This document shows, piece by piece, positions 6,360 through 41,896 of a DNA stretch of 64,000 nt; the stretch's first letter is position 1, and each line of letters begins with the position of its first letter. The notes beneath the pieces were generated by a model, which saw only the letters and a list, made by a program, of their open reading frames with translations, was not told where the DNA came from and ran no database searches. A program made the translations under genes and the position numbers. Origin of the DNA: Lathyrus oleraceus (lineage: Eukaryota > Streptophyta > Magnoliopsida > Fabales > Fabaceae); contig NC_066583.1 in NCBI RefSeq assembly GCF_024323335.1, forward strand, positions 17,468,665-17,532,664, in the 5' to 3' direction.

Positions 6360-6397
<38 letters not shown>

Positions 6398-6429: not shown

Positions 6430-6442
6430 GCTGCCCCTGTTC
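6430..6442 (-). other. Element B2 polypurine tract
   Basis: On the minus strand this reads GAACAGGGGCAGC directly before the LTR. It is the same tract as in B (25618-25630) and close to those of C and D. Confidence 0.8.
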
Positions 6443-8610: not shown

Positions 8611-8617
8611 GTCTCTT

Positions 8618-9959: not shown

Positions 9960-10205
9960 CTGCAATTCGTTACGTGCGTGTGTGTAAGAAAACATAGCTC
10001 GTTTGAAAGATAATAGGAAAGACAAAGAGCGCAATATTTGAATGCAAAACGTCCATTGATTTATTGAATATAAATATGCTTATGAAAATGACAAAACCCT
10101 TAACAAATTAGCTATTGTGCCTCGGGCATAGACACAATGCTTTAAGAAGTTTGATTGTAAAAGAAAATTAAAATTTGCAATTCTAGAATAAACAATAACA
10201 ATTAC
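9960..10205 (-). other. Element B2 predicted intron between PR and RT
   Basis: In element sense, GTAATT overlaps the stop codon of gag-PR (..CAGGA|GTAATT) and TTGCAG|A closes the intron; removal keeps the reading frame. Length is 246 bp, identical to B. A spliced PR-RT junction is known for Ogre elements; splicing here is inferred. Confidence 0.7.
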
Positions 10206-13200
10206 TCCTGACTAAAGGAAATCGGGATAATGTCTTCAGTCTTCCAATTGTTGAGTCCGTCACCAATTGTTGGGAAAATCCAGCTATCCAAGTCGCAATC
10301 ACTATCAGCATCTTCCATAGCATTAATCTGATTTTTGACTATATTTCCAGAGTTAAACCCCAGGCCAGCTTTATCAGACTTGTACGGTACATTGATCAGT
10401 TGACTCCAACCAGCACGATCACCATTTTCAATCGCGGCTTGAGCATCTTTCAGAGAGATCATGACAGGGGGAGCACGAACAACCATGGGCACAAGGGGAG
10501 TTGGCTTAAGGACAGGACTGGGTGGAGGAACCACTTCAAATGACTGAGAAGGAGTCTCAAAGAATTCACCATCCATCTCGACGTATTTGAAGGCTTGCAC
10601 ACTACTGACAATATACTCTTCTTCTCCACATACAGTGACAACCATGCCTGCTATTGGATACTTCAGCTTTTGATGAAGCGACGAAGCTACCGCACCTGCC
10701 CCATGGATCCAAGGGCGCCCCAACAAGCAGGAGTAGGCGGGACGAATGTCCATCACGTGAAAGGTAGTGTTGAAGACTTGAGGTCCTATCTTGATAGGGA
10801 GAACCACTTCACCATAGACAACACTCTTCGCACCATCGTAAGCACGCACCACAACATCACTAGGTTTCAGTTCAATGCCTTTGTAGTCAAATTTATCGAG
10901 TACAGCTTTCGGGAGCACATTCAAGGAAGAGCCGTTGTCGATCAACACGTGAGCCAGGGTGATCCCCTCACACTCGATGGAGATATGCAGAGCTTTATTG
11001 TGATTCTTTCCTGCTGGCGTCAGGTCAGCATCGGAAAAGCCTAGGCCATTGTCAACAGTCAAATTAGCAACATAATGTTCGAATTGATCGACGGATGTTT
11101 CTTGAGGCACATGAGCGGTCTTCAAGAATTTCATCAATGCATTGGCATGGGATTCAGAGGATAATAACAAGGACAACATTGAGATTTTAGACGGAGTATG
11201 CCCCAATTGTTCCACTACATCAAAATCGCTCTTACGGATGATTTTCAGCATCTCTTCCATTTCCTGTTTGGCAACATCTTCAGAAGTAACTTCGACCGAT
11301 GTCTCTGACTGAGGAGGATTGACTGGTCTTTTTCCTCGAATTTCGGGAGCGGGAGGTGAGATTTCTGGGGAGTAGATCCTTCCACTTCGAGTAACTTTAC
11401 TAGTCCCCACAATATCATTAGGATTAGCAGAACTACCAACTTGCTTTATGCCATGGATGTAAACGTCGCCTCCATAGTTCCACGGAATAGCTTTGCTGGA
11501 GGAATATGGCACGGGGCCAGGTGCGGTAATAATCAGGGGAACCACTTTGGGCTCAGCGGTAATCTTCACAGGCACTCTAGTAGCGGTAATCTTCACTGGA
11601 GCTTTGGACCTAGCAATCACAGATACCTCTTCAATAGAGTTGTCCACCTTAGGAACCCTTTCAAATAGAATTGTACGATCATCCATCAGCCGTTGAATGC
11701 CGTTCTTCAACTTCAAACAATCATTGGGTCGGAGTACACAGAGATCGCAATCTTCAGCACAACCTGGAAATAAACCAGCTTGCAATAAATTCTTCTTAAC
11801 GATCAGGAGAGGAGATGCTAAATCAGCAACGTCAGTAACGTGAGAATTGTCGTCCACAACATTAACATTCTGGTCATGATTAGGCATAGGTGCTGTGATG
11901 ACATTGGGGGTCGCCGGAGGATCAAATTCAATTTCTCCAGCGTCGATCATATCCTGAATCTTGTTCTTCAACAACCAGCAATCATTCGTATCATGCCCGG
12001 GGCTATCGGAGTGATAGGCACACCTGGCGTTGGGATTATAACGAGGAGAAGTAGTGTTGGGATTCGCAGGAGGGCCTCTGAGGGTAATCAAATTGGCCTT
12101 TAACATACTCTGCAGTGCTTGGGTTAAAGTCATATTGATCTTGGTAAACTGTCTTCTCGACCTGTCTTGTCTGTGTTGGAAGTTCTGAGATGGCGGTGCG
12201 GCAATTGTAACTGCCCCAACAGTATGGTCACGATTCTTCTTGTTATGCTTCCTCTCACTGTACACAGCATTTGATTCATTCTTTCCCTGATAGGACTTTT
12301 TGGTGCTTGCAGAAGTAGCTGCCTGTATCTTTCCACTTCGAATGCCGCTTTCAACCCGTTCACCTGTCAAGATAAGTTCAGTGAAAACTGACGAGGAACT
12401 TCCCAGTAGATGGCTGTAGAATGGGCCAGTCAGTGTACCCATGAACATGTCCACTAACTCTCGATCAGTCATAGGGGGTTTGACTCTGCCAGCCAAATCT
12501 CTCCACTTTTGAGCATATTCTTTGAAACTTTCTTTAGAGCCCATAGTCATATTTTATAGCTGTAGCCGAGTAGGCGCTAACTCAGAATTATACTGGTAGT
12601 GCTTGTAGAAAGCTGTTGCTAAATCAGTCCATGTGCGGATGTTAGAGCTCTCAAGCTGATAATACCACTCTAACTGTGTGCCAGACAGACTCTCTTGGAA
12701 GAAATGGATCCACAGTTTCTTATCAGTAGTGTGCGGCTGAATCTTTCTCACATAAGCCCTTAGATGCATCTGAGGACAAGAGGCACCATCATACTTAGTG
12801 AAAATGGGAACCTTGAATTTGCGGGGAATGACCACATCAGAGACCAGACCCAAGTTTTCGAAATCCAGACCGGGCACTTTCTGCCCCTCCATAGCTAGCA
12901 TACGTTCTTCCAGCAACTTGTACTTATCATCCTTCGGAGAGTACTGTTCATGTTCATAATCTTCATCGTCGTCCTCAGAATTGACGAGATTAGGATTCTC
13001 ATCTTCCGAATCATTCTCGGTCTCTTCTTCTGAATCCTTCGGAATTCTAATCTTGACTCCTGTAACCTGTCCCTTAAGCCTTCTCCCCGGGTTGATGTAA
13101 CCCACAGGTTTCTGGTCCTTCTTCTTCTCCATCAAAAGAGCTTTCAGTTCTTCCTGCCCCTTAGATAAGCTCAACATCATTTCCTGGAATTGAGCATTCT

Positions 13201-13237
13201 GGGCCTGGAGATCTTTGACAGTTTGTTCGAGAGCCAT
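10206..13237 (-). pseudogene. Element B2 gag-protease polyprotein, one nonsense codon
   Basis: A minus-strand frame of about 1,010 codons starts with ATG at 13235-13237. In order it has an N-terminal coiled-coil-like segment (ALEQTVKDLQAQNAQF), an acidic region, the gag core (HFFQESLSGTQLEWYYQL), a CX2HX5HX4C knuckle, a second cluster CX3CX2CX6C, and a retropepsin-like domain with IDNGSS and LLGRPWIHGAG. A single TAA at 12554-12556 replaces the CAA present in B, so the frame is split into 12554-13237 and 10202-12550. The first half is intact where the copy in B is frameshifted. Apart from the stop, it looks like a recently functional gag-PR. Confidence 0.9.
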
Positions 13238-14148
13238 TGTTCAATCTGTTTGAATCTGCTGGAATCTGTTTGATTGGAAAATCGTGAGAACACTGATCCT
13301 TTAGAATACCTGTTATGCGATGCAATGCAATGTATGAAATGTTTTCAAGGACTTTCGGGATTTAACTTTGCATAAACTAACAAAAAGAGCTTTTTTTTCT
13401 TTTCTCTTTTGTTTTTGCTTTTGTTTTTGTTTTTTCTGTTTTTTTTTTTAGCAGAGTTAAATCCCTAAATCCTTGAAATGGTTAGTACAATGCCATGATG
13501 TTATGATGTTATGTTGTTATGAGGTCATGTTGTTAGATAAATAACAAGCACAAGCAAGTCACACAACAATCATTCCTAGGTTTTAAGGCTTGCGTGAGTT
13601 CCATAGGTAAATACCCTCCCCACTGAAGTTTGGTTGGTTCAACCTGTCTTAGAATAGTAACCGGGTTCTAGAAGGATCTCAAATCATTGACCTTTCCTTA
13701 AGTCCACTTCAGTGCAACACCAAGTGGTTGACCGAAGTTTCCCTAAAGTCCAATCTCAAAGAGTGTAGTATCGAGTCTCAACCAACTCCAGTCGGAACCG
13801 AAGCCAGTTATCTCACTACTTTCTAATGGCCAGGATGAGTCAATTAGGGTTCTAAAGGTCTGGTTAATGCTTTTATGACACCACGCGAATGCCAAATATT
13901 TCCTCAACTAACATGAGGAACATCAGGACATCCAAAGTGCCACATTAACCGTAGCCATCATTTTGACCATTCCAGTATACGCCGGACAGTCGCGATGATC
14001 TCTTGCTACTTACCTAAGGTACACTAGATCCGGGTGTAGGATCTTTCACTCAAGCATAACATACCCAAGCAATCCCTTAAAAATAAATCAGACAAATTGA
14101 ATAAGTGATCTTGTTTTTAAGGTAACCTCTCTTTTTAAATATTTAGGC
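13238..14148 (-). other. Element B2 5' leader
   Basis: About 0.9 kb between PBS and gag, non-coding. It includes a poly-purine/pyrimidine stretch near 13385-13450 and the intact version of the site into which B2 itself inserted in B. There is no ORF1, as in B. Confidence 0.8.
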
Positions 14149-14166
14149 TCCCCAGCAGAGTCGCCA
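14149..14166 (-). other. Element B2 primer-binding site
   Basis: TCCCCAGCAGAGTCGCCA on the + strand is the exact complement of the PBS in A, B and C, four bases from the LTR. Confidence 0.9.
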
Positions 14167-14170
14167 GTTC

Positions 14171-16049
14171 TGTCATACGGTGAACTGGACTTTTTATGTT
14201 TTTTATCGCAATGTCGCGGTTAGCAAGAGTCGCCACCGACTTTTCTTTTATCCAATAAGGAAAGGTGGAAAAGAACAGGAAAGACCTTAATTTAGATTTT
14301 GGGTTCGGGAGGTACATTATACAAAGGGAAGGTGTTAGCACCCTTTGTATCCATGGTTATCCATGGGCTCTTAATTGCTCGATCACTTATATTATTTTTG
14401 TCTAAAAAAGTGTTTGTGAATTGTTTGGAAAATTGTTTTGAAAAGAGAATTTAACTTTGTAATGATTCTTGTATGAATGTATACAAAGTGGTTATCCCGT
14501 TTTAGTTTTGAAAATTGTTTAGAAAAATATAACTCGGTAATGATTCTAGTATGAATGTATACCAAGTGGTGATTTTCTAAAGGCATTTTGAAAGGTGTGA
14601 GGTGCAAAAAAATGTTTTAAGTTGTGAGCCAGCAATTAAGAGTTATACCGACCCAAGGTCTTTACGGGCATTTCCTATCCTTATGAGGGTAAAACTGTCC
14701 TTATTATTGAGAAATAAGTAGTTTTATCCTTTGGATGTAAAAGGGTCATCGTAGGGTCATCGATTGGTCATTGAAGGCAACAGTTATGAGGATACCTTAG
14801 CATTCGAAGGGACTATCATCATTTAACCGTAGGCAACATCGGAGGGTCATCGAGGGACAAAGTTGTATATTCGAAGGCAACATCCGAGGGACTATAATTT
14901 ATTTTATGATGATTTAACCGAAGGGTCTTTGCTAAGGGTATCCCCACGTTCGCGGGACATGACCGTAATATCGTAATCGTAAGGCAACAAAGAGAGGTCC
15001 AAGATCACTTATTCAAAGGCAAAGTTTTACAATTAATTATATAATTAAGATGAAACTCCACATTAAAATTATTAAAAATAATATATTAAAAAATTAATAC
15101 ATTAGAAATTAATACATTAAAAAATTAATTTAGGGTGAAACTCCACAAGGGTATCCCACAAATAAAGTGGAATACCTAGCCAATAACCTTTTCCTGGGAT
15201 ATGTGAACCTTTACGAAACTCAAAAAAAGAAACATGTCAGAACACCAAATCAGGGTGCAATCGAAGATTACACCGGAGAAATATCACAACAATAAATAGG
15301 ATATGATAAATAATGCATGGCTATGATAAAAACATAAAAAAAAACAGACTAGAAGAATCAGGTACTGTCTCGTTCGCCTCTGCCTCGCCTAGCGAAGGCC
15401 ACGGATTTTGAATTTGAAAACAGCCCCATGTTAGGAACTTTGAATTTTATGGCATTTTATCACAGGAATAACATGGTCAAACATTCAGGGTATTCAGGCA
15501 TATTTAAATTCCCATACGAAAGCAAATTATATATCAACATTTAATCATGATGCATTATATATGTAGATATGGCCAATTGAAAGTATAAACAATAGAGATA
15601 CGCAAACCTGTTTGCCAATTCAAGGTTGAAGGGATTGACCACTTGTAGTATCGGAATAAGTTAGGCAGCGGGAATTGGACGGCGATGACTTCGGTGCAGA
15701 TGGGCTGCCTTCAGGGTTTCTTTACTCTGAATTCTCCGGGTAGGCAGGGTTCCTATGCCAAAGTTTCTATCCGTCCTTCTCTGTTCTCTCTCTTTCTTTT
15801 TCCTCAAGGTTTTGTTCCAAGGAAACCTCAGAGTGTTTTGCTTCTCTTCCTTCTTTCTCCAGTAAATCTCCCAGTGTAAACTCCAAGTGTCACTCCCCTA
15901 CTGAAACTTCAGTATTTATAGACTAATTTCGTGGGTAATGGGCTTGGAATGAGGGAGACCCAAGTCCAAAATAATTTGTTATATTTTATTTATTTATTTA
16001 TTTTAATTATTTAATTAATTAATTAATTAATTAATTAATTAAATTTTTT

Positions 16050-16084
<35 letters not shown>

Positions 16085-16116
16085 GAAAAATGATGGGTAA
16101 TTTTTGGGGTATGACA
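14171..16116 (-). repeat. Element B2 5' LTR
   Basis: Nearly identical to 4422-6429. Differences seen are a few single bases (for example near 15047, 15309 and 15688) and the length of the poly-T/(AATT)n tract near 16010-16080. It ends at 16116 before the right TSD copy at 16117-16121. Confidence 0.93.
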
Positions 16117-16121
16117 GCGTG

Positions 16122-16759
16122 GTGTCATAAAAGCATTAACCAGACCTTTAGAACCCTAATTGACTCATCCTGGCCATTAGAAAGTAGTGAGATAACTGGC
16201 TTCGGTTCCGACTGGAGTTGGTTGAGACTCGATACTACACTCTTTGAGATTGGACTTTAGGGAAGCTTCGGTCAACCACTTGGTGTTGCACTGAAGTGGA
16301 CTTAAGGAAAGGTCAATGATTTGAGATCCTTCTAGAACCCGGTTACTATTCTAAGACAGGTTGAACCAACCAAACTTCAGTGGGGAGGGTATTTACCTAT
16401 GGAACTCACGCAAGCCTTAAAACCTAGGAATGATTGTTGTGTGACTTGCTTGTGCTTGTTATTTATCTAACAACATGACATCATAACAACATAACATCAT
16501 AACATCATGGCATTGTACTAACCATTTCAAGGATTTAGGGATTTAACTCTGCTAAAAAAAAAAAAAACAAAAACAAAAGCAAAAACAAAAGAGAAAAGAA
16601 AAAAAAGCTCTTTTTGTTAGTTTATGCAAAGTTAAATCCCGAAAGTCCTTGAAAACATTTCATACATTGCATTGCATCGCATAACAGGTATTCTAAAGGA
16701 TCAGTGTTCTCACGATTTTCCTATCAAACAGATTCCAGCAGATTCAAACAGATTGAACA
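16122..16759 (+). other. Element B 5' leader, second part
   Basis: Continuation of the leader from 4421. Non-coding, with an A-rich stretch (16554-16612) shortly before gag. Same sequence as the B2 leader in reverse. Confidence 0.85.
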
Positions 16760-19700
16760 ATGGCTCTCGAACAAACTGTCAAAGATCTCCAGGCCCAGAA
16801 TGCTCAATTCCAGGAAATGATGCTGAGCTTATCTAAGGGACAGGAAGAACTGAAAGCTCTTTTGATGGAGAAGAAGAAGGACCAGAAACCTGTGGGTTAC
16901 ATCAACCGGGGAGAAGGCTTAAGGGACAGGTTACAGGAGTCAAGATTAGAATTCCGAAGGATTCAGAAGAAGAGACCGAGAATGATTCGGAAGATGAGAA
17001 TCCTAATCTCGTCAATTCTGAGGACGACGATGAAGATTATGAACATGAACAGTACTCTCCGAAGGATGATAAGTACAAGTTGCTGGAAGAACGTATGCTA
17101 GCTATGGAGGGGCAGAAAGTGCCCGGTCTGGATTTCGAAAACTTGGGTCTGGTCTCTGATGTGGTCATTCCCCGCAAATTCAAGGTTCCCATTTTCACTA
17201 AGTATGATGGTGCCTCTTGTCCTCAGATGCATCTAAGGGCTTATGTGAGAAAGATTCAGCCGCACACTACTGATAAGAAACTGTGGATCCATTTCTTCCA
17301 AGAGAGTCTGTCTGGCACACAGTTAGAGTGGTATTATCAGCTTGAGAGCTCTAACATCCGCACATGGACTGATTTAGCAACAGCTTTCTACAAGCACTAC
17401 CAGTATAATTCTGAGTTAGCGCCTACTCGGCTACAGCTACAAAATATGACTATGGGCTCTAAAGAAAGTTTCAAAGAATATGCTCAAAAGTGGAGAGATT
17501 TGGCTGGCAGAGTCAAACCCCCTATGACTGATCGAGAGTTAGTGGACATGTTCATGGGTACACTGACTGGCCCATTCTACAGCCATCTACTGGGAAGTTC
17601 CTCGTCAGGTTTCACTGAACTTATCTTGACAGGTGAACGGGTTGAAAGCGGCATTCGAAGTGGAAAGATACAGGCAGCTACTTCTGCAAGCACCAAAAAG
17701 TCCTATCAGGGAAAGAATGAATCAAATGCTGTGTACAGTGAGAGGAAGCATAACAAGAAGAATCGTGACCATACTGTTGGGGCAGTTACAATTGCCGCAC
17801 CGCCATCTCAGAACTTCCAACACAGACAAGACAGGTCGAGAAGACAGTTTACCAAGATCAATATGACTTTAACCCAAGCACTGCAGAGTATGTTAAAGGC
17901 CAATTTGATTACCCTCAGAGGCCCTCCTGCAAATCCCAACACTACTTCTCCTCGTTATAATCCCAACGCCAGGTGTGCCTATCACTCCGATAGCCCCGGG
18001 CATGATACGAATGATTGCTGGTTGTTGAAGAACAAGATTCAGGATATGATCGACGCTGGAGAAATTGAATTTGATCCTCCGGCGACCCCCAATGTCATCA
18101 CAGCACCTATGCCTAATCATGACCAGAATGTTAATGTTGTGGACGACAATTCTCACGTTACTGACGTTGCTGATTTAGCATCTCCTCTCCTGATCGTTAA
18201 GAAGAATTTATTGCAAGCTGGTTTATTTCCAGGTTGTGCTGAAGATTGCGATCTCTGTGTACTCCGACCCAATGATTGTTTGAAGTTGAAGAACGGCATT
18301 CAACGGCTGATGGATGATCGTACAATTCTATTTGAAAGGGTTCCTAAGGTGGACAACTCTATTGAAGAGGTATCTGTGATTGCTAGGTCCAAAGCTCCAG
18401 TGAAGATTACCGCTACTAGAGTGCCTGTGAAGATTACCGCTGAGCCCAAAGTGGCTCCCCTGATTATTACCGCACCTGGCCCCGTGCCATATTCCTCCAG
18501 CAAAGCTATTCCGTGGAACTATGGAGGCGACGTTTACATCCATGGCATAAAGCAAGTTGGTAGTTCTGCTAATCCTAATGATATTGTGGGGACTAGTAAA
18601 GTTACTCGAAGTGGAAGGATCTACTCCCCAGAAATCTCACCTCCCGCTCCCGAAATTCGAGGAAAAAGACCAGTCAATCCTCCTCAGTCAGAGACATCGG
18701 TCGAAGTTACTTCTGAAGATGTTGCCAAACAGGAAATGGAAGAGATGCTGAAAATCATCCGTAAGAGCGATTTTGATGTAGTGGAACAATTGGGGCATAC
18801 TCCGTCTAAAATCTCAATGTTGTCCTTGTTATTATCCTCTGAATCCCATGCCAATGCATTGATGAAATTCTTGAAGACCGCTCATGTGCCTCAAGAAACA
18901 TCCGTCGATCAATTCGAACATTATGTTGCTAATTTGACTGTTGACAATGGCCTAGGCTTTTCCGATGCTGACCTGACGCCAGCAGGAAAGAATCACAATA
19001 AAGCTCTGCATATCTCCATCGAGTGTGAGGGGATCACCCTGGCTCACGTGTTGATCGACAACGGCTCTTCCTTGAATGTGCTCCCGAAAGCTGTACTCGA
19101 TAAATTTGACTACAAAGGCATTGAACTGAAACCTAGTGATGTTGTGGTGCGTGCTTACGATGGTGCGAAGAGTGTTGTCTATGGTGAAGTGGTTCTCCCT
19201 ATCAAGATAGGACCTCAAGTCTTCAACACTACCTTTCACGTGATGGACATTCGTCCCGCCTACTCCTGCTTGTTGGGGCGCCCTTGGATCCATGGGGCAG
19301 GTGCGGTAGCTTCGTCGCTTCATCAAAAGCTGAAGTATCCAATAGCAGGCATGGTTGTCATTGTATGTGGAGAAGAAGAGTATATTGTCAGTAGTGTGCA
19401 AGCCTTCAAATACGTCGAGATGGATGGTGAATTCTTTGAGACTCCTTCTCAGTCATTTGAAGTGGTTCCTCCACCCAGTCCTGTCCTTAAGCCAACTCCC
19501 CTTGTGCCCAAGGTTGTTCGTGCTCCCCCTGTCATGATCTCTCTGAAAGATGCTCAAGCCGCGATTGAAAATGGTGATCGTGCTGGTTGGGGTCAACTGA
19601 TCAATGTACCGTACAAGTCTGATAAAGCTGGCCTGGGGTTTAACTCTGGAAAGATAGTCAAAAATCAGATTAATGCTATGGAAGATGCTGATAGTGATTG

Positions 19701-19790
19701 CGACTTGGATAGCTGGATTTTCCCAACAATTGGTGACGGACTCAACAATTGGAAGACTGAAGACATTATCCCGATTTCCTTTAGTCAGGA
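16760..19790 (+). pseudogene. Element B gag-protease polyprotein, one frameshift
   Basis: Starts with the ATG of ALEQTVKDLQAQNAQF, as in B2. One C is missing near 16905 relative to B2, shifting the frame until the downstream frame (open from before 17080 to 19794) takes over. Domains in order: coiled-coil-like N-terminus; gag core around 17280-17650; CX2HX5HX4C knuckle at 17974-18018; second cysteine cluster CX3CX2CX6C at 18235-18279; retropepsin-like domain with catalytic Asp codon 19057-19059 in IDNGSS (Asn replaces the usual Thr/Ser) and flap/exit segment LLGRPWIHGAG; acidic C-terminus. The last codons overlap the predicted 5' splice site, so spliced RNA would fuse PR to RT. Confidence 0.9.
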
Positions 19791-20036
19791 GTAATTGTTA
19801 TTGTTTATTCTAGAATTGCAAATTTTAATTTTCTTTTACAATCAAACTTCTTAAAGCATTGTGTCTATGCCCGAGGCACAATAGCTAATTTGTTAAGGGT
19901 TTTGTCATTTTCATAAGCATATTTATATTCAATAAATCAATGGACGTTTTGCATTCAAATATTGCGCTCTTTGTCTTTCCTATTATATTTCAAACGAGCT
20001 ATGTTTTCTTACACACACGCACGTAACGAATTGCAG
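19791..20036 (+). other. Element B predicted intron between PR and RT
   Basis: GTAATT at 19791 contains the gag-PR stop codon, and TTGCAG ends at 20036. Removal joins exon phase 2 to a continuous frame leading into the pre-RT segment. The sequence is AT-rich, 246 bp, the same length as in B2. A TTG-rich polypyrimidine stretch precedes the acceptor. The position matches the known Ogre intron; use is inferred. Confidence 0.75.
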
Positions 20037-22054
20037 ATCCCTATCCACTCTGGATCCTGTTGATAATAGTTCTACTACTGTTCATTATGACTTTAAAAAT
20101 CCGATCTACCGAGCCGAAGATGGAAGTGAGGAAGATTGTGAAGTACCTGAAGAACTTGCCAGAATGTTACTACAAGAAGAAAGGACTATACAGCCGCATG
20201 AGGAGTCAGTTGAGACTGTAAATCTGGGTACCGAGGTGGACAAGAGAGAAGTCAAAATAGGAGCAGGCTTGGAAATCAGTGTCAAAAGAAGATTGATTCA
20301 AATGCTACATGACTATGTGGAGATTTTGCTTGGTCTTACGAAGACATGCCAGGGCTGGATACCGATATAGTAGTGCATCGTTTGCCGACGAAGGAAGATT
20401 GTCGTCCTGTTAAGCAAAAGGTTCGTCGCATGTGTCCTGAAATGTCCGAGAAAATCAAGGCCGAAGTCATGAAACAATTCGATGCTGGTTTTCTGGCGGT
20501 TACTTCTTATCCTCAATGGGTTGCTAATGTGGTACCAGTGCCAAAGAAGGATGGTAAGGTGCGAATGTGTGTGGATTACAGAGATTTGAATAGAGCGAGT
20601 CCCAAGGATGATTTCCACTGCCACACATTGATGTTCTGGTAGACAACACCGCTCAACACAAGGTATTCTCCTTCATGGATGGATTCTCGGGTTATAACCA
20701 GATCAAAATGGCACCTGAGGACATGGAGAAGACTACGTTTGTGACGCAATGGGGCACCTTCTGTTATAAAGTAATGCCGTTTGGTTTAAAGAACGCAGGA
20801 GCAACGTACCAGCGTGCTATGGTGGTTTTGTTCCATGACATGATCCATCATGAAATAAAAGTATATGTGGACGATATGATAGCCAGGTCTCATACTGAAG
20901 AAGAACATCTCAATCATTTATACAAACTGTTTGAGAGGCTGAAGAAATACAAGTTGAGATTGAACCCGAACAAATGCACCTTTGGAGTAAGATCTGGTAA
21001 ACTCTTGGGCTTTATTGTCAGTGGTAAAGGTATTGAGGTCGACCCAGCCAAGGTGAGAGCTATTCAAGAGATGCCAGTTCCCCGTACGGATAAAGAAGTC
21101 AGAGGTTTCTTGGGACGTTTGAATTACATTGCCCGATTTATTTCCCATTTGACCGCTACTTGCAAACCCATCTTCAAGTTACTGAGAAAAAATCAAGAGA
21201 TGATATGGAATGATGAATGTCAAGAAGCTTTCGACAAAATCAAGAAGTACCTCCAAGAACCTCCAATTCTGGTGCCACCAGTTGAGGGAAGACCTCTAAT
21301 CATGTATTTAACCGTTTTAGAAAACTCAATGGGGTGCGTGTTGGGACAACATGACGAGTCCGGTCGAAAAGAGTATGCCATATAGTACCTTAGCAAAAAG
21401 TTTACCGACTGTGAAACAAGATACTCACTGCTCGAGAAAACTTGCTGCGCTTTGGCCTGGGCTGCTCGCCGACTAAGACAGTATATGTTGAATCACACCA
21501 CTTTGTTGATTTCTAAGATGGATCCTATCAAATACATATTTGAGAAACCCGCCCTCTCCGGAAGAATAGCAAGATGGCAGATGATTTTAACAGAGTATGA
21601 TATCCAGTATACCACCCAAAAAGCAATCAAAGGAAGCGTGCTAGCTGATCATTTGGCTCATCAGGCCGTGAATGATTATCAGTCTATGAATTTTGAGTTC
21701 CCAGATGAGGATGTCATGCTTGTTACTGATTATGAAGAACCTGGACCGAATGAAGGACCCGAAGTGGGATCCCGATGGACTATGGTTTTTGATGGATCGT
21801 CTAACGCATTGGGCAACGGTATTGGCGTCGTGATCATTTCCCCCAAGGGTGGCCATACGCCTTTCACCGCTAGACTATGTTTTGAGTGTACCAACAATAT
21901 GGCTGAGTATGAAGCATGTATTTTGGGACTCAGAGCTGCTATAGACCTGAGAATCAAGTTTTTGAGGGTGTATGGAGACTCAGCCTTAGTAATCAGTCAG
22001 GTCAAAGGAGAATGGGACACTAAACATCCGAACCTCATCCCCTATCGAGAGTAG
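20037..22054 (+). pseudogene. Element B reverse transcriptase, RNase H and archaeal-type RNase H
   Basis: Second exon of the polyprotein. An acidic pre-RT segment is followed by RT with WVANVVPVPKKDGKVRMCVD, FMDGFSGYNQIKMAPED and the YVDD active site at 20864-20875; RNase H (GCVLGQHDESGRKEYAI, LEKTCCALAWAARRLRQY); and a second, archaeal-type RNase H (MVFDGSSNALGNGIGVV, NNMAEYEACILGLRAA), typical of the Tat lineage. Lesions are one T missing near 20325, one C missing near 20612, TAG at 21383-21385 and TAG at 22052-22054. Each is a single-base event, so the copy is recently dead or the losses are sequence errors. Confidence 0.9.
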
Positions 22055-23506
22055 GTGTTGACATTAATCCCATACTTTGAAGAGATCACATTCGAACATA
22101 TTCCCCGAGAGGAGAACCAGTTGGCAGACGCATTGGCTACCATGTCATCTATGTTCAGAGTCAGATGGGACAATGAAGCTCCCCGGATTACCATTGAACG
22201 ACTAGACGAACCAGCATATTGTTATGAACTTAACGCTGATGAAGTAGAAGAGAAGCCTTGGTTCCACGAGATAAAAAGATATTTAGAAGCTCAGGAATAC
22301 CCTGAAGGGACATCCATCAATGACAGGAAATTTCTGAGGAAGTTCTCCGCTAAATTCTTTTTGAGTAATGGAATATTGTACAAACGTAACCATGATTCGA
22401 CTTTGCTTCGCTGTGTGGATAGAAAGGAATCAGAGAAGATTATGGAAGACATGCACGACGGTATCTTTGGGACTCATTCTAGTGGACATACAATGGCCAA
22501 GAAGATTCTGAGGTCAGGGTATTATTGGTCTACCATGGAAACTGATTGCCACCATCACTCCAGAACTTGTCATAAGTGCCAGATCTATGCGGATAAAGTA
22601 CATGTGCCTCCTGCTCCATTAAACGTGTTGACCGCGCCGTGGCCCTTTGCAATGTGGGGCATTGATATGATTGGCGAGATTAAACCTACCGCCTCTAATG
22701 GACATCGTTTCATCCTTGTTGCTATTGATTACTTCACAAAGTGGGTGGAGGCAGCCTCATTTGCTTCTGTTACTAAGAATGTGGTGGCACGATTCATCAA
22801 GAACAGCCTCATCTGCCGATACGGCGTCCCTGAGAGAATTATCACTGACAATGGCACTAATTTGAACAACAAGATGATTACTGAACTCTGCACGCAGTTC
22901 AAAATAAAACACCATAACTCTTCTCCGTACCGGCCAAAGATGAACGGCGCTGTAGAAGCGGCTAATAAGAATATTAAGAAGATTATACAAAAGATGACGG
23001 TAACATACAAAGACTGGCATGAGATGTTACCATTTGCTCTTCATGGTTATCGTACTTCCGTGCGAACTTCGACGGGGGCAACTCCTTTCTCTTTAGTCTA
23101 CGGAATGGAAGCCGTTTTACCAGTGGAAGTTCAGATTCCCTCTCTAAGGATCATGAAAGAGGCGGGCTTAGACGAGGACGAATGGATTCAGACTCGACTC
23201 GATCAGATAAATTTGATGGATGAGAAGAGACTTGCGGCTGTATGTCACGGGCAGATATATCAGAAGCGCATGACCAGGGCATTCAACAAAAAGGTCAAGA
23301 GACAAGTGTATCAAATTGGCGACTTGGTAATCAAACGCATCATCCTACCACAAACTGACCCCAGAGGCAAATGGACTCCCACATACGAAGGGCCATTTGT
23401 AGTTAAGAAGGTATTCTCAGGTGGAGCCATGATACTCGCTACAATGGATGGTGAAGACTTCCCACATCCCGTGAACGCGGACATAGTTAAAAAATACTAC
23501 GCATAA
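22055..23506 (+). CDS. Element B integrase region (with end of aRNase H), open
   Basis: A 483-codon open stretch continues the polyprotein after the TAG at 22052. It begins with the tail of the archaeal-type RNase H (REENQLADALATMSS), then the H2C2 zinc-binding region (HDGIFGTHSSGH ... CHKCQ), and the integrase core with catalytic Asp codons at 22664-22666 (WGIDMIG) and 22847-22849 (ITDNGTN) and Glu at 22955-22957 (GAVEAANKN). The C-terminal domain carries GDLVIKRI and ends KKYYA. All three catalytic residues are present, so this is the only apparently intact integrase in the window. It has no start of its own and would be made only as part of pol. Confidence 0.88.
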   Translation: MLTLIPYFEEITFEHIPREENQLADALATMSSMFRVRWDNEAPRITIERLDEPAYCYELNADEVEEKPWFHEIKRYLEAQEYPEGTSINDRKFLRKFSAKFFLSNGILYKRNHDSTLLRCVDRKESEKIMEDMHDGIFGTHSSGHTMAKKILRSGYYWSTMETDCHHHSRTCHKCQIYADKVHVPPAPLNVLTAPWPFAMWGIDMIGEIKPTASNGHRFILVAIDYFTKWVEAASFASVTKNVVARFIKNSLICRYGVPERIITDNGTNLNNKMITELCTQFKIKHHNSSPYRPKMNGAVEAANKNIKKIIQKMTVTYKDWHEMLPFALHGYRTSVRTSTGATPFSLVYGMEAVLPVEVQIPSLRIMKEAGLDEDEWIQTRLDQINLMDEKRLAAVCHGQIYQKRMTRAFNKKVKRQVYQIGDLVIKRIILPQTDPRGKWTPTYEGPFVVKKVFSGGAMILATMDGEDFPHPVNADIVKKYYA

Positions 23507-23516
23507 AAGAGACCCG

Positions 23517-23690
23517 CTAGATCGACGTATCTAGGCAAAAGTAAGGGCATCCCGGCGAACCAAAAGGGTTCGGGCAAAAATTAGGGATATATAAAAAAAA
23601 AATGTACACCCGGCAAGTCGAAAACCTGAAAAGGCGGCTTGGGCAAAAAAGGGTATCCTGGTGGACTGAAAACCTGAAAAGGCGGTCCAG
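23517..23690 (+). other. Element B post-integrase four-hairpin cassette
   Basis: Eight bases after the integrase stop lie four inverted repeats, most followed by GGCAAAA. Stems: CTAGAT/ATCTAG (23517-23534); CGAACC/GGTTCG (23556-23572); CAAGTCG/CGGCTTG (23614-23641) enclosing CC/GG; TGGACTG/CGGTCCA (23662-23689) enclosing CC/GG. The same four occur after integrase in C and D, and three in A, with different bases but preserved pairing. Confidence 0.75.
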
Positions 23691-24754
23691 GCAAAAATTA
23701 GGGATTAAAGCGTATGACTATGTCCCGTTCTCAGTCAACTTTCATCCAAGTTCGAGGGACTGACCAAGCCAATCACTTCTATCCGACAGCAAGGGATGAG
23801 ATGCTCGAAGACATAATGACAGTAGTAGGCTTAAAATCAATAGGACTTCTTCCACATAGCTTTCTCTTTGTTTTCGACAATTTCCTCTTACTAGGATTTC
23901 TGTCTCCTTGTACACAAATTGCCTGTTTATAGGCCTCCTTTCAAAATCAATACAACCCTCTTTCAAAAAAAAGATGCTTTTGTTTTTACTTTTCTGTTTT
24001 GGTTGCGTAAATGTCCATTGATTTAATTTGAATTAATATGTGCATTTGAATATGACTGATGTTTACCAAAAATACATGCATAGAATAGCAATAGCAATTA
24101 CTACCCGACTTCAGGATCAAGGAAAAGGTCTAATCATGCTTCCAATGAATCCGCTACCAATTCTCTTCCCCAGCAAGCCTGTTTTTTTTTTTCCTCAGAA
24201 AATGGCAGTATCCCCAGGCACAGCCAGTTACTCCCCAACAGAGGTCGGCGTCACCAGACAGATTGATCATCTCATCCATCCCCAGCCAGGCTCTGTTGAA
24301 TATTTCCACCATCAGACAGAAATCAAGCATCCCCAGCCGAGAAAGGGTCATCGACACAAATGTCTCAAATCCGTAGATGGGGATTTATTTTCCCCAGTAG
24401 AGTCCCCAAGCAGAACTTCTCATACGCATAACTCATTCATTACATCCTTTCACAGCATACGCATGCATACAACATTCACATTTATTTAGCATAACACGAA
24501 ACATCTCATGCATCATGACATAGCATGAAGCTAACTTTTCTTTGCAGGTTAATTATCCTCCTGATATAGTCAAAGTAGAAGGTTCATTCAGACAGACACC
24601 TTTATCAATCACATTCAAGATTCAGATACATATTTCAAATACAGTTCATGGGAACATTCATTCTGACAACACTTCGATATCCTCCTAACGATGGCATCTC
24701 TAAGCCCATCCCAGACATTTATTGCAAGTACAACATATACAGGTTATCAGATAC
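23691..24754 (+). other. Element B 3' untranslated region with PBS-complement-like motifs
   Basis: Non-coding. From 24167 to 24415 it has repeated TCCCCAGCMR-type motifs (24167, 24212, 24233, 24279, 24331, 24391), some extending to TCCCCAGTAGAGTC, which matches 12 of the first 14 bases of the PBS complement. The frames at 23714-23932 and 24040-24489 are not conserved in the other elements. Confidence 0.6.
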
Positions 24755-25450
24755 AGCCTAACGTACGGTTCATTCTGATTCAGCCCAACATATGACTTCT
24801 TCAGCAACTCCAATGCGGTCTAACGTACGACCCATTTGGACCTTCAAATCCTCAGATGCTGCCTAGCGTACGGTACATTCAGGGGTGTAGTCTAGCGTAC
24901 GACTACTTTCTTTTTCAGATGCAGCCTAACGGACGGCTCATTCTACAACTCGGATACGATCTAACGTACGATCCATTCTGAACTTCAACAACCCCAACGC
25001 GGTCTAACGTACGACCCGTTTGGATCTTACAACCCTCAGATGCTACCTAACGTACGGTACATTTCTGAAGTGTAGTCTGGCGTACGACTACCGCTTTCAT
25101 CATCAGATGCGGCCTAACAGACGACTCATTCTGCGACGGTCTAACGTACGACCCGTTCGGATGTCCATCCCCTCAGATGCTACCTAACATACGGTACATT
25201 TCTGAAGTGTAGTCTAACGTACGACTACCCCTTTCGTCATCAGATTCAGCCTAACGTACGGCTCATTCTGCAACTCAGATACGATCTAGCGTATGGTCCA
25301 TTCTGATCCTTTATCCCCAACAGCATATGACACACTCCGACTCCCCAGCGAAGTCGGCAGCCTAATGGATGACTCATTATACGGTCTAACGTACGACCCA
25401 GTGTGGCACCCATGTCTTCAAATTGGCCTAATATACGGCGCGATCTGTAG
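24755..25450 (+). repeat. Element B constant-loop hairpin array (~19 units)
   Basis: About nineteen short hairpins share the loop TAACGTAC (variants TAGCGTAC, TAACATAC). Checked examples: GGTC/GACC at 24817-24832, TAGTC/GACTA at 24888-24905, AGCC/GGCT at 24923-24938 and GATC/GATC at 24958-24973; TACC/GGTA also recurs. The same few stems return in a rough order, giving a higher-order period. Each unit is usually followed by CATTC or similar. No conserved coding frame. Confidence 0.85.
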
Positions 25451-25617
25451 CTTTCGTCATCAAACCTCCCGGATGGCATCTTTAAGCCCATCTCCATCAA
25501 GACCAACTGTCGATTCTCAAGTGCAAATTTTTGGGGCATTCTAGTGTTCAATAATCTTCCACCTCCAGACCACGAATGGCGTATACACCATTCTAACTCT
25601 CTCGGTCCAAGAATATT
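25451..25617 (+). other. Element B pre-PPT spacer
   Basis: Non-coding sequence between the hairpin array and the polypurine tract, matched in reverse at 6443-6640 in B2. Confidence 0.6.
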
Positions 25618-25630
25618 GAACAGGGGCAGC
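25618..25630 (+). other. Element B polypurine tract
   Basis: GAACAGGGGCAGC ends exactly at the 3' LTR start and would prime plus-strand DNA. Confidence 0.8.
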
Positions 25631-27771
25631 TGTCATACCCCAAAATTTGCCCATTAATATTTCAAGACATTTTGCAAGGCATTCCGACTCATATATAACA
25701 CTGATCTTGAAGAAACAAAGGCCCAGCTCACGGATGGCCCAATCCAGAAAATGGCCCAAACTGGCCTGTTCGCTACGCGCTCGCCTAGCGAAGCTGACAG
25801 ACAACAAAAATTTCGGGCTTCATTCTGAGCCCAAAAAAAAAAAAAAAACGAGAAACGAAAAAAAAAAAAAAAAAAAGAGAATTTTTTTTTTAATTAATTA
25901 ATTAATTAATTAATTAATTAATTTAATTAATTAAATAATTAAAATAAATAAAATATAACAAATTATTTTGGACTTGGGTCTCCCTCATTCCAAGCCCATT
26001 ACCCACGAAATTAGTCTATAAATACTGAAGTTTCAGTAGGGGAGTGACACTTGGAGTTACACTTGGAGTTACACTGGGAGATTCACTGGGGAAAAAAGAG
26101 AGGAGGAGAACAGAGAAGAACGAATAGAAGTTTTGGCATAGGAACCCTGCCTACCCGGAGAATTCAGAGTAAAGAAACCCTGAAGGCAGCCCATCTGCAC
26201 CGAAGCCATCGCCGTCCAATTCCCGCTGCCTAACTTATTCCGATACTACAAGTGGTCAATCCCTTCAACCTTGAATTGGCAAACAGGTTTGCGTATCTCT
26301 ATTGTTTATACTTTCAATTGGCCATATCTACATATATAATGCATCATGATTAAATGTTGATATATAATTTGCTTTCGTATGGGAATTTAAATATGCCTGA
26401 ATACCCTGAATGTTTGATCATGTTAATCCTGTGATAAAATGCCATAAAATTCAAAGTTCCTAACGTGGGGCTGTTTTCAAATTCAAAATCCGTGGCCGCT
26501 CGCTAGCACCTCGCTAGGCGAGCCTGGGGCGAATATTCGCCTGGCCTTCGCTAGGCGAGGCAGAGGCGAACGAGACAGTAGCTGACTTTTCTATTCTGTT
26601 TTTTTTTGTTTTATCATAGCCATGCATTATTCATCCTATCCTATTTATTGTTGTGATATTTCTCCGGTGTAATCTTCGATTGCACCCTGATTTGGTGTTC
26701 TGACATGTTTCTTTTTTTGAGTTTCGTAAAGGTTCACATATCCCAGGAAAAGGTTATTGGCTAGGTATTCCACTTTATTTGTGGGATACCCTTGTGGAGT
26801 TTCACCCTAAATTAATTTTTAATGTATTAATTTCTAATGTATTAATTTTTTAATATATTATTTTTAATAATTTTAATGTGGAGTTTCATCCTAATTATAT
26901 AATTAATTGTAAAACTTTGCCTTTGAATAAGTGATCTTGGACCTCTCTTTGTTGCCTTACGATTACGATATTACGGTCATGTCCCGCGAACGTGGGGATA
27001 CCCTTAGCAAAGACCCTTCGGTTAAATCATCATAAAATAAATTATAGTCCCTCGGATGTTGCCTTCGAATATACAACTTTGTCCCTCGATGACCCTCCGA
27101 TGTTGCCTACGGTTAAAAGATGATAGTCCCTTCGAATGCTAAGATATCCTCGTAACTGTTGCCTTCAATGACCTATCGATGACCCTACGATGACCCTTAA
27201 ACATCCAAAGGATAAAACTACTTATTTCTCAATAATAAGGACAGTTTTACCCTCATAAGGATAGGAAATGCTCATAAAGACCTTGGGTCGGTATAACTCT
27301 TAATTGTTGGCTCACAATCTAAAAACAATTTCACACCTCACACCTTTCAAAATATCTTTAGAAAATCACCACTTGGTATATATTCATACTAGAATCATTA
27401 CCGAGTTATATTTTTCTAAACAATTTTCAAAACTAAACGAGATAATCACTTTGTATACATTCATACAAGAATCATTACAAAGTTAAATTCTCTTTTCAAA
27501 ACAATTTTTCTAAGCAATTCACAAACACTTTTTTTTTAGACAAAAATAATATAAGTGATCGAGCAATTAAGAGCCCATGGATAACCATGGATACAAAGGG
27601 TGCTAACACCTTCCCTTTGTATAATGTACCTCCCGAACCCAAAATCTAAATTAAGGTTTTTCCTGTTCTTTTCCACCTTTCCTTATTGGATAAAAGAAAA
27701 GTCGGTGGCGACTCTTGCTAACCGCGACATTGCGATTAAAACCACAAAAAAGTCCAGTTCACCGTATGACA
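25631..27771 (+). repeat. Element B 3' LTR
   Basis: 2141 bp against 2139 bp for the 5' LTR. The few visible differences include positions near 26425, 26749 and 27634 and homopolymer lengths. Followed by the TSD copy at 27772-27776. Confidence 0.95.
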
Positions 27772-33399: not shown

Positions 33400-35975
33400 G
33401 AAAAAATTAAGGATTTGGCAAGTAACTGCATCCTGACAAGACTTTGTTCTACAACTGTCGTCCGTCAGAGATCCTTGCTCATTATCAGCCAAAGCTTCAA
33501 ATACATCGGATTCAGAATTGGTGGAGAAACGGTCATTATGTTGAATGTAGCCCTTTTCCAATATATATCACCAATTTCAAATTTGTAAAGATCTATGGAG
33601 TCTTGCCATTCGCAGACTACCATTCTATCAAATAAATTTGAGCCTTTTATCCAATTATTGACACTCTTATCTGTTTCTATTCAACAAATGTTTTGCATGT
33701 TTTGATTAAGAAACTATCATTGTTTTAAATGATCAAATTTTTTATAATTTGTTTTTAAACAAAGTGAACATTCACAATGACGAAAGGATACTTAGGAGAC
33801 CCTCAGTGCTCTCCCAAGGGTGGTACGATCCCCAACAGGGTAAGATTTTTGTCCATATTCCTGGCATGACTGTATCTCCTCCCTCCGGAACCCCTTGTGG
33901 TTTATCCTACCAAGTGGATTGCTTGTTGAGAGTCATCTCTCTTCCCTTCAGCAGAGTAGCAATCTTTCTTCCTCAGCAGCTTGGATCTCTTTGGGCAAGA
34001 GCGGTATTTGGTGGTTGATCCCGATAAATCCTTTATCTCCTCGGATAGATTCCTCAGTAGAGTTGTTGGTGTGGTGGACCTTGTCTGTGATAACTCTCGT
34101 CCCCAGCTGGAATGATTGATGATTCATCCCCTGCAGAGTTCTTTGCTTCCTGGTATCTCTGATCCCCAACAGATTGGATACTCTCCGGTGAACTTGGCTT
34201 TCTCTCTTGAGATGTAGTACCAGGTGGTTGATTCCTGGACCTGGTTGTGTTAAATATGTTTGTTTGTCAACATACATCATACATAAACCACGCGCTACAT
34301 GCATAATTATAACATTCAGATATTCATGTTCCATTCTTTGCCATATATCGTTGTTTGCTGTCTCCTGCTATTTGGTGATATACTTCCCCAAGCAGACGTG
34401 TGTGTCTGATCTCTCTATATAGAGTCAGCTCCATAGGCAGAAAACGTCTATCCTTTCTTCCATATTCCCCACCGGGTTATATCCTCGTGGATGTTGATTG
34501 TTTTTGTTCCTTCCCAACACATATACTGGGATGGTTTTCCCCATTGAGTTATATCCTCACCGGGACAAGTCTTGATTTGGTGTGCCTATCTAGTTTGATC
34601 CTAGATCGGTCTCTTGAGACTCTTTTCCTGTTTCCCCGTGGTAAATGAATAATTGCTCAATAATTAGTAATTATTATCCCCGGAGGAGTCTGTGGTTCTC
34701 TACCCTCATACCGGTGGTTGTAAACCCTATTTCTTCCCTTTTTGCAGAGTAACCATCTTTGCTCATCTTTAATTGGTGACAATTATCTTCATCCAATATT
34801 CGATGTTGATATCCCCTCATCTGCGTGGATAATTGCCCTGATTATGCAATTTATCCCCAGCGGGTCATCTCTCGTCTACCTTGTTGTTGTTGGTAACTAT
34901 TGTTTCTCCCCTGAATTGGTCATCATTATATACCTAGTTTCGGTATCCCGATGCCTTTTCTTTTCGATCGATTTATCCTTTATTAACCCAGTAACCGATT
35001 ATGGATAATCGTCCATGCGAGTATATTATCTATGTTCTGACGGTAATAGATAGTATATCTCATGCACTCTCGGGTCTGAAGCCTTTTGTTCTTCCCCAGT
35101 TGAGTAAGATTCGTATCCCCTTTGTGGAGTCGAATATCCATCCTGTAATCGAGTTTGCTTTTAGCCCTCTTTTGGATGATGAGTGTTTTAGGAATATTCC
35201 CCAATTCACGCCTTGGTTGGTCACCTATTATATGCCCAGTAACCGGTATCCCTGGTGTTCCTTCCTCTCTGCTCCCTATTATGACTTTTTGTCCCCTGTG
35301 GAGTCAGAATCCCTGAGTTGAAGTATACCTTTTAGGTTTTTCTCAGACGTTTTGAAGTTTTGATATCTCTCACCCTTATACCGGTATTGGATATTCATCT
35401 CTTCCTAAGCATGTTGTATCTCTCACCCTCATACCTGGCGTTCAGATCACATGTCTCCTTGAGCTTATTACCCAGTAATCGGTAATACCTCGTCCCGCTG
35501 CTTCCCCAGGAGTGTCCTTGTGGACATCCCCAGCGAAGTCCCTTAGTGGATTGTTTTCACCCGGATTTTATCCGAAGTATCCGCTGTGGATAGTTTTTTG
35601 CTGTATTAGCATATTCCCCAATACATGCATCTTCGAGTCAGCTCGAGTCTTTCCATTGGATCTTTTCCCTTTGGAATTCTGTTCCCCACGCTTTGAGTCG
35701 TGACCTGCTCGCGCATTTTTATCTCTTTTCTATCCCTTGAGAGTCCCCAGGGTCTTAGTCCCATGGAGTGAATTGCTCATATGGATTATCAGTGGCTTCT
35801 GATTTCTTTGCTTTTGTGGACACATATCTCCACAGAGTGCTACCATTTTTCATACCTACATTTGCATCATGAGGTCTCTTAGGGACCAAAATTCGTCTCT
35901 TTGTTATTATTTAAGCCCATTCTACCCCGTCGAGACGAAGATTTTAACCTTCACTTCTCCGGCTAGAATGACCTT
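33400..35975 (+). other. Element A long 3' untranslated region with PBS-complement-like motifs
   Basis: About 2.6 kb without a conserved frame. It is dotted with TCCCCAGNRGAGT-like motifs (for example 33829, 34125, 34158, 34676, 34852, 35091, 35117, 35293, 35526) at irregular 40-200 base spacing. Motifs centred on ACCGGT recur at about 34713, 35235, 35386 and in altered form nearby. I do not see the constant-loop hairpin array found in B, C and D. The small frames between 33444 and 35703 are chance. Confidence 0.6.
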
Positions 35976-36480: not shown

Positions 36481-38169
36481 TGTAATACCCCAAAATTTAC
36501 CCTTCATTTTTCCTAAAAAAAAAAAAAAAAAAAAAACGAAAACGAAAAAAAAAAAAGAAAAAAAAATAATTAATTAATTAATTAATTAATTAATTAATTA
36601 AATAATTAAAATAAATAAATAAAATATAACAAATTATTTTGGACTTGGGTCTCCCTCATTTGAGCCCATTACCCACGAAAATCAGTCTATAAATACTGAG
36701 ATTTCAGTAGAGGAAAAGACACTTGGAGTTAGAATTGGAGTTACACTGGGAGATTCGCTTGAGAAAAAGGGAGAGAAGCAAAATACTCTGAGGTTTCCTT
36801 GGAACAAAACACTGGACAAAAACCTGAAGGGAAACCTACAAGCTACTCTGCAGCAACCTCCAGGCAACTCTGAAAGGTTCATTCTGACTCACAGACTTTC
36901 AGCTCAAGCAAACCCTGCCATTTGATTTTTCTTCTCCAATCAGGTTTGCCCTATATCCATCATCTTTATGCCTTTAATTTGAATGCTCTAAATATATGAG
37001 GTATTATGGTTGAATTTGATACCCTTTTGATGCATGTGTTTGACAAGAGGTTTAGGCCTCCTACCTTTGGTTGCTTTTTATGAGTTTTTAGTGAATTGAA
37101 AGGGCATGATTTATGTGATTACATTTTGATTTGAGGGCAACTCTTGGTTACCCTATTTTGGTTCACTAACCCTTTTGTTGAGTTTTTGTGAAGGCACCTA
37201 ACTTTTGCAGGGATAATTTGCGTGGTTTCCCACTTTATTTGTGGGATACCCCCTGGAGGTTTCATTCCGATTACCTGTACTGACTCACTTTCTTTAATGG
37301 TGTTTAGCTTGGAAGGATCCCTGGGTTTCCCATTCCTTTAATTGCTGTAACTTCGGATCTTTATCCGTGTGGTAATTTTTTCCCTTTCTCATACTTTATC
37401 GCTTTCTTAGCTGGAAGACCTCGATAGGAGGCAATGTTTGAGCCCCTTGGTGGCATTTTACTTTGAGATACATGTTTTGTGTTTTGTATTCATATCCCTG
37501 CAGGTAGCGCGGTTCCTTCGTCAAGGACTGCCTTTTTGCCCTCGAGCATCCCAAACCTTAAAACCCAAAGCAACACGTTTACTCCTTCTACTACAGGCGA
37601 GTAAGTCTCCAAAGGTTGAGCATCCGGTAGATTGCGTAGTGACGTCGTTCGTCCAAAACCCAATCCATAACCCCGTAGTTAGCCGAACTACGGCTTGCTC
37701 TGATTCTCATTCCAGATGAGATACGTAGGCATAAGACGCGATGTCTTAGCGAGCACACATCCCCCAACCCATAGGTCAGCCGAGCTACGAAGACTCTGAT
37801 TCTCATATTCAGATGAGATACGTATGCAGTGGATGCGACATCCGCGCGAGTCATTTTCATTTAACCCTTTTTTGTTTTTTTTTGGGTAAACAGCACAAGA
37901 TAAACTCACACCCTTTGGACGAAAACTACAAAAGTGGATCCCGTAGAGTACTACGGATGCGTAGGGGTGCTAATACCTTCCCTTCGCATAACCGACTCCC
38001 GAACCCAAGATTTGGTTGCGAGACCCTGTCTTGTCCTTTCCTTTTTTTCAGGTTTACTTCGAGCGTTTCCTTTCCCTCCGTTGGGATGAATAACGCACGG
38101 TGGCGACTCTTCTGTCTTTTTCTTTCGCCGGTTGTTTTTTTCGCGCACTGTATTTTTCAGGTTGCGACA
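36481..38169 (+). repeat. Element C 5' LTR
   Basis: Starts TGTAATACCCC, ends CAGGTTGCGACA. It contains an A-rich/(TTAA)n tract, a TATAAATA box at about 36689, tandemly arranged GATGAGATACGTA modules in U5 (37716-37845), a hairpin GGAT-GCGAC-ATCC at 37831-37843, and TGGCGACTCT at 38101, 71 bases before the PBS. No gene. Confidence 0.95.
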
Positions 38170-38171
38170 GC

Positions 38172-38189
38172 TGGCGACTCTGCTGGGGA
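38172..38189 (+). other. Element C primer-binding site
   Basis: TGGCGACTCTGCTGGGGA, two bases after the LTR end. Confidence 0.9.
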
Positions 38190-41886: not shown

Positions 41887-41896
41887 AATAGACCCG

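Follow-up and report, generated by a model that had tools for sequence, protein, structure and literature searches.

Hairpin arrays with a constant loop and changing stems upstream of the 3' LTR of Ogre/Tat-type retrotransposons in pea: a putative cis-acting RNA element

Short hairpins repeated in tandem near the 3' end of a pea retrotransposon present the same loop on stems of different sequence, which raises the question of what keeps the loop while the stem is left free to change. The array lies in a stretch of 64,000 nucleotides of pea DNA (the window, to which all coordinates refer), together with the following LTR retrotransposons and their landmarks.

1993..27771, plus strand: element B, an Ogre/Tat-type LTR retrotransposon, interrupted by B2
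1993-4131, plus strand: 5' LTR of B
4136..4153, plus strand: primer binding site of B, TGGCGACTCTGCTGGGGA
25619..25652, plus strand: polypurine tract of B and start of its 3' LTR, AGGGGCAGC followed by TGTCATACCCC
25631-27771, plus strand: 3' LTR of B
4422..16116, minus strand: element B2, of the same family as B and nested inside it
36481..46410, plus strand: element C, LTRs 98.6% identical, target-site duplication CACGT
51864-49433, minus strand: 3' LTR of element D

The LTR pairs of B and B2 are 98.3% and 99.3% identical and are flanked by the target-site duplications GACTC (5 bp) and CACGC, respectively. For D and a further element, E, the identified parts are limited to the start of the 3' LTR and the polypurine tract. 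Domains of gag, protease, RT, RH, an aRH-like RVT_3 and integrase were found in B, and its open reading frames follow the same domain order as a frame of E at 30989-33217 (RT_RNaseH 7-106, RVT_3 172-290, H2C2 381-437, rve 457-553). RT, RNase H, second RNase H and integrase is the order given for Ogre and Retand (PMC6317226). The hallmarks of the Ogre/Tat lineage were all found, namely an archaeal-type second RNase H between RH and integrase, LTRs with target-site duplication, primer binding site and polypurine tract (in B, B2 and C), and tandem repeats between pol and the 3' LTR. The primer binding site of B is presumably of the tRNA-Arg type. When the proteins of C were compared with those of B, the RT core, the aRH and the first half of the integrase of B remained unmatched, so that C is probably non-autonomous and, since the RT core is among these parts, was probably mobilised in trans; judged by its sequence it is a recent mover. 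C is also a mosaic, with its gag closer to D and its pol closer to B. B was inserted into a DUF7745 coding sequence (1422-2060). A CCHC knuckle and a retroviral protease from some other retroelement were seen between LTR pieces at 48380-49546, and two 35-bp tandem repeats adjoin an LTR-like stretch at 59848-60152.

Hairpins with a constant loop were found in the 3' regions of all these elements, as arrays in four of them and as a single perfect copy in E.

24755..25440, plus strand: hairpin array of B, 17 units, loop TAACGTAC / TAGCGTAC, ending about 190 bp 5' of the 3' LTR
6625..7375, minus strand: hairpin array of B2, 19 units, with one additional TACC and TAGTC pair relative to B
43440..44490, plus strand: hairpin array of C, 52 loop matches to [AG]T[TC]CAG
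52020..52770, minus strand: hairpin array of D, loop AGCC[N]GA, stems GATTC/GAATC, GATCT/AGATC and others
35466..35487, plus strand: single hairpin TATTACC-CAGTAATC-GGTAATA in the 3' region of E, loop type F2

The initial annotation had described the array of B as about nineteen units in which a constant loop sits on changing, paired stems, with a mirrored array in B2. Its coordinates and sequences were correct, as were its five stem types (GGTC/GACC, TAGTC/GACTA, AGCC/GGCT, GATC/GATC and TACC/GGTA), and the mirrored array was found on the minus strand; nineteen is the number of units in B2, whereas B has 17. At up to two mismatches and with overlaps removed, TAACGTAC has 17 matches in B, between 24759 and 25436, and 19 in B2, on the minus strand between 6631 and 7368. 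The central claim was borne out when pairing alone was scored: perfect stems of at least 4 bp enclosing an 8-nt loop numbered 14 in B and 16 in B2, against 2.1 (maximum 7) in 200 dinucleotide shuffles of each, and 12 of the 14 and 14 of the 16 bear the TAACGTAC loop. Over loop lengths of 4-10 nt in B and B2, a clear excess was seen at 8 nt and at no other length. Complementarity also exceeded chance when the right arms were dealt anew among the units of B: Watson-Crick pairing holds in 15 of 17 units at each of stem positions 2, 3 and 4, compared with means of 8.6, 9.8 and 5.8, while pair 1 is C-G in 17/17 and hence uninformative; the units share duplication ancestry, so that such counts are not independent trials. 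Tandem periods of 137 and 67 bp show that the B-type arrays were clearly amplified as a multi-hairpin block, as had been proposed. An outer stem was considered as a general part of the design and rejected: it is real in B, where 33 of 40 distinct units came out lower with their own flanks, but no support was seen in C (59/117 distinct units) or D (18/45).

The array of C contains 42 perfect hairpins with a 6-nt loop (2.9, maximum 7, in shuffled sequence), 40 of which carry [AG]T[TC]CAG on stems such as TGGC/GCCA, CGGT/ACCG, CGAT/ATCG, CGAC/GTCG and CAGT/ACTG. That of D has 15 hairpins with a 7-nt loop (shuffled 2.2, maximum 6), 10 of them with stems of at least 5 bp (shuffled 0.5). The arrays of B, C and D share one position, after pol and about 155-195 bp 5' of the 3' LTR. 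When the whole window was scanned for a single loop on several stems (1902 sub-windows), 17 sub-windows had 4-5 stems, all in B, B2 or C; the array of D peaked at 3 stems and 8-10 members, and nothing outside these four arrays exceeded 3 members. The same scan of 10 simulated windows gave 0 of 19,020 sub-windows with at least 4 stems and 20 with 3. An array was absent from E by this automatic scan; by eye, one perfect and two imperfect hairpins of the CAGTAACC type (F2) were recognised there. The array of C coincides with an open frame (43387-44652) matched by at least 13 'hypothetical proteins', all from pea, which are probably translations of the array rather than genes. An inverted repeat, GTTCAATAATCTTC / GAATATTGAAC, lies directly 5' of the polypurine tract of B (25540-25640) and is present in the predicted fold of B; a comparable one noted by eye in C is absent from C's predicted fold.

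The design extends beyond the window. B-type arrays were found, in addition to B2, in 10 more pea genome sources (L005, L009-L017) picked for showing loop clusters, which bears out the expectation that other family members carry the array. Together these 12 sources hold 191 units, with 5 to 28 loops per source, and in stem pairs 1-4 689 of 764 cells are Watson-Crick, 42 G.U, 13 A.C and 20 other. Besides the loop families of C and D, weaker ones were recognised, with the loops [CT]TAACC (F1), CAGTAACC (F2) and CGCCG[CT] (G). The junction between polypurine tract and LTR has 35,495 pattern occurrences in the genome; from the first 100 listed places, on one contig, the first members of three LTR-start classes were taken (20 junctions, 1.25 kb upstream of each), the ATCTGTAAG and TCATACC classes lying outside this sample. 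Strong arrays were seen at 14 of the 20 by the automatic scan and at 5 more by eye and from pairing figures. Each of the 10 TGTAATACC junctions has an array of the [AG]T[TC]CAG type, comprising 15-36 perfect hairpins. Among the TGTAACACC junctions, three have AGCC[N]GA arrays and one an [AG]T[TC]CAG array, and L058 has a small CGCCG[CT] set (4 by the scan). The AGCTGTAAGACC junctions carry weak [CT]TAACC sets, flagged by the scan in 2/5 (L062 and L064), which is near chance level, and recognised by eye in 4/5 (L061-L064); the fifth, L065, has no array. At TCATACC (B-type) junctions, at least one exact TAACGTAC lies within 1.3 kb upstream in 11 of 18, by a hand count among the matches listed. 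Two places of arbitrary pea DNA, 200 kb in all, contained no array with a loop of at least 6 nt and at least 4 stems, the best chance match being AT-rich with 4 stems, 4 members and a 5-nt loop; a junction within this DNA (L033) is without an array. The bare count of the loop is uninformative by itself, because TAACGTAC occurs 53,201 times in the genome and the reversed 8-mer 269,005 times. Protein and pattern scans of viral and genome contigs and plasmids, collections nearly free of plants, gave no relatives outside pea.

Pairing holds in every loop group when units are collected by loop, without selection for pairing, a procedure that understates loop variation. Watson-Crick cells amount to 93.4% in C (357 loops, 12 sources), 91.1% in D (74, 4), 92.5% in F1 (16, 4), 81.4% in F2 (14, 4) and 75% in G (7, 1); sliding the arms by 1-3 nt lowers these values to 2-43%. 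These figures bear on an account in which a few chance inverted repeats were amplified neutrally and have no function. The fast turnover and the varying number of units among the B-type sources agree with it, but pairing lies far above the slid and shuffled controls, and this account is already disfavoured because families with other loops share the design; we regard it as highly improbable.

The kind of mismatch tolerated in the stems bears on which molecule they pair in. Because the mutational contexts of the two arms in an inverted repeat are close to mirror images, chance decay would be expected to give G.U and A.C at about 1:1. On the sense strand the ratio among non-Watson-Crick pairs is 42:13 in B, 43:27 in C, 22:2 in D, 5:1 in F1, 5:5 in F2 and 2:1 in G; pooled over the six groups it is 119:49, or 60:28 for distinct stems, with units related by shared descent and hence not independent. 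The excess has p values of 1e-4 (raw) and 0.024 (distinct) in B and 4e-5 (raw) in D; in C it falls short of significance (p 0.07), and F2 shows none. Measured against the expected 1:1 decay, this excess suggests that the stems pair in the sense RNA, a conclusion that is supported but not proven. One pattern from each of two pairs of G.U and A.C forms (CGATATYCAGACCG versus CGGTATYCAGATCG; GGTCTARCGTACGATC versus GATCTARCGTACGACC) was also counted genome-wide: the G.U form of C occurs 1,331 times and the A.C form of B 149 times, different families from which no ratio is derivable.

The same counts weigh against a function at the DNA level, whether as cruciforms, as duplex targets of a DNA-binding or chromatin protein, or as seeds of satellites. 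Perfect inverted repeats are present on both strands and Ogre 3' repeats do seed satellites (PMC7004042), but a double-stranded readout would not allow free change in both arms and the G.U excess indicates the sense RNA, which makes this explanation quite unlikely. Mutation without selection has somewhat more in its favour, although we still consider it unlikely: template switching, which copies one arm onto the other, makes and mends perfect stems (PMC8794818; PMC8604942), and tandem duplication, plain in these arrays, would spread the result. It leaves the G.U excess and the outlasting of the stems by the loop unexplained. No inverted loop was seen among 598 loop matches in five groups, a weak test given that the loop inversion observed in yeast was confined to arms longer than 9 bp (PMC8604942). 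Template switching could thus supply matched stem changes, but not the lasting loop.

Folding energy of whole arrays was set aside as mostly uninformative evidence. The sense strands of B and B2 have z values of -2.7 and -3.4, but the array-less 3' region of E (35000-35700) is as low (about -3.6, both strands low), and in C and D the sense values are ordinary (-0.6, -0.9, -0.4) and the antisense ones lower (-1.9, -1.8, -1.3). Single hairpins are weak in C and D (about -4 to -5 kcal/mol). Since array energies in these two are ordinary and single stems weak, the hairpins, if formed, probably form with a partner.

The initial annotation had pointed to the self-complementary cores ACGT and GTAC in the loop of B and to kissing contacts that might dimerise genomic RNAs. 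Both 4-nt palindromes are there, and in Ty3 a palindrome located in a hairpin loop mediates dimerisation of the RNA (PMC11381356). However, no palindrome of 4, 6 or 8 nt was found in the loop variants checked of C (3), D (3), F2 (2) and G (2), which otherwise follow the same design, and in F1 only TTAACC holds one (TTAA), the CTAACC variant being without. A self-complementary loop is thus confined to B and TTAACC; kissing is rejected as a general mechanism, is at most special to B, and is as an explanation of the arrays very unlikely. Pairing of the loop with another part of the element was likewise rejected: no exact complement was found elsewhere in B (0 for 8 nt) or D (0 for 7 nt), and in C two of the 6-nt loop variants have a single complementary site apiece, which is within chance.

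A single loop kept through changing stems, together with loops that differ by family, points to a ligand that reads the loop and differs between families. We propose, with a probability of about 0.4, that the array is a multivalent cis-acting RNA element whose loops would be read by a family-specific protein, most likely the element's own Gag, selecting the RNA for packaging. The arrays would sit in the 3' untranslated region of the genomic RNA, each unit being a short hairpin that presents one constant loop of 6-8 nt; the stem would be needed for pairing and not for its sequence, and could drift by compensatory change. About 10 to 50 loops in tandem might then offer a high-avidity landing site for a protein acting in trans, with Gag as the likeliest ligand, picking full-length RNA for packaging. 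An element-encoded ligand is preferred to one host factor because the loops differ among families. Gag binding and packaging are what we infer from three observations. First, the loop of C resembles that of D, and its gag is 51.7% identical to that of D and 33.8% to that of B over the same stretch, while its pol is 79.4% identical to B and 61.6% to D; loop likeness thus appears to track gag and not pol, in one informative, mosaic element and with all comparisons made within pea. Second, the 904-aa gag-protease frame of B has no CCHC knuckle. Third, C retains highly similar LTRs (98.6%) and a large array (52 loop matches) although its RT core is unmatched, which is what a cis-acting element served in trans would show. 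Against the proposed reading stand elements without an array (L065 and L033, and E save for one or a few hairpins), as do the ordinary array energies and weak single hairpins of C and D and the uneven G.U excess.

The main rival, which we hold rather doubtful, is a nuclear-export or RNA-stability element, similar to a constitutive transport element, by which intron-containing Ogre RNA would be exported through a host or element protein. The arrays lie shortly 5' of the 3' LTR, as the constitutive transport element does; Ogre RNA is partly spliced (PMC6317226), so that unspliced RNA would need exporting; and export of Cer1 genomic RNA requires a protein of that LTR retrotransposon (PMC10309623). 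A common host factor should, however, fix one loop everywhere, and the loops of the families differ. A known RNA family as the identity of the array was rejected, since Rfam gave no match in the whole window and none at E<=1 in 24600-25700, a result that leaves room for an analogue of the constitutive transport element.

A second motif in the same regions, TCCCCAGCAGAGTC, is the complement of the primer binding site. Across 25 3' regions (36,226 bases), 57 sense copies and a single antisense one were counted at up to three mismatches, with at least one copy in 21 of the 25, whereas permuted motifs gave a mean of 1.0 (maximum 16). None was found in B gag, B pol or E pol; 200 kb of arbitrary pea DNA gave 31 and 14 on the two strands, fewer per base but not zero. 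Copies in the window are the following.

24232, 24330, 24391 and 25342, sense: TCCCCAGCAGAGTC-like copies in B
42610-43121, sense: TCCCCAGCAGAGTC-like copies in C
52895-53307, minus strand (sense of D): TCCCCAGCAGAGTC-like copies in D
33829-35527, sense: TCCCCAGCAGAGTC-like copies in E

We take these copies to resemble the 3' end of tRNA-Arg. Base pairing between them and the 5' primer binding site is conceivable, by analogy with the RNAs of Ty1 and Ty3, which require end-to-end contact (PMC4974528). Joined to the Gag reading, this suggests a wider and more tentative picture, in which the loops would act as a fast-evolving address code of Ogre RNA, each read only by the cognate Gag; related families, dozens of them in a single genome, would sort their own RNA and that of their non-autonomous riders from all other RNA, the primer-tRNA-like copies would pair with the 5' primer binding site for selection and circularisation, and satellite-seeding repeats would be by-products.

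A large share of legume genomes consists of Ogre-type elements, whose 3' tandem repeats have so far been regarded as hypervariable sequence that occasionally turns into satellite DNA. Should they prove to be RNA hairpins under selection, why Tat elements keep them becomes a testable question, and the proposed reading, if true, would offer a first candidate for how RNA is chosen by those plant LTR retrotransposons that lack a zinc knuckle. The hypervariable repeats that Ogre/Tat retrotransposons carry in tandem in their 3' UTR were described by Macas et al. 2009 (cited in PMC7004042), and the origin and function of similar Retand repeats are stated to remain unknown (PMC11963269). The pea arrays share with them lineage, position, family specificity and amplification; unlike the arrays, those repeats have been described as tandem repeats and satellite seeds, and the words hairpin, stem-loop and secondary structure are absent from the main text of PMC7004042 and PMC11963269. 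No account of Ogre 3' repeats as constant-loop hairpins was found in searches of the openly accessible literature; the repeats and their seeding of satellites were already known, and the description as constant-loop hairpins appears to be new.

The constitutive transport element of simple retroviruses lies just 5' of the 3' LTR and has a repeated loop motif. The pea arrays resemble it in both respects and differ in having far more copies, apical loops and a family-specific loop. The genomic RNAs of Ty1 and Ty3 likewise belong to LTR retrotransposons and carry structured cis elements, at both ends, although the accounts in PMC4974528 and PMC11381356, as far as they describe these, do not mention a constant-loop array. 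In single-stranded RNA viruses (MS2, STNV, hepatitis B virus, parechovirus) the coat protein reads dispersed stem-loop packaging signals (PMC6281560). The pea loops, unlike these, crowd one tandem array in the 3' UTR, and their reading by a coat protein is putative; what the two have in common is many stem-loops with one shared loop motif on stems that are free to vary.
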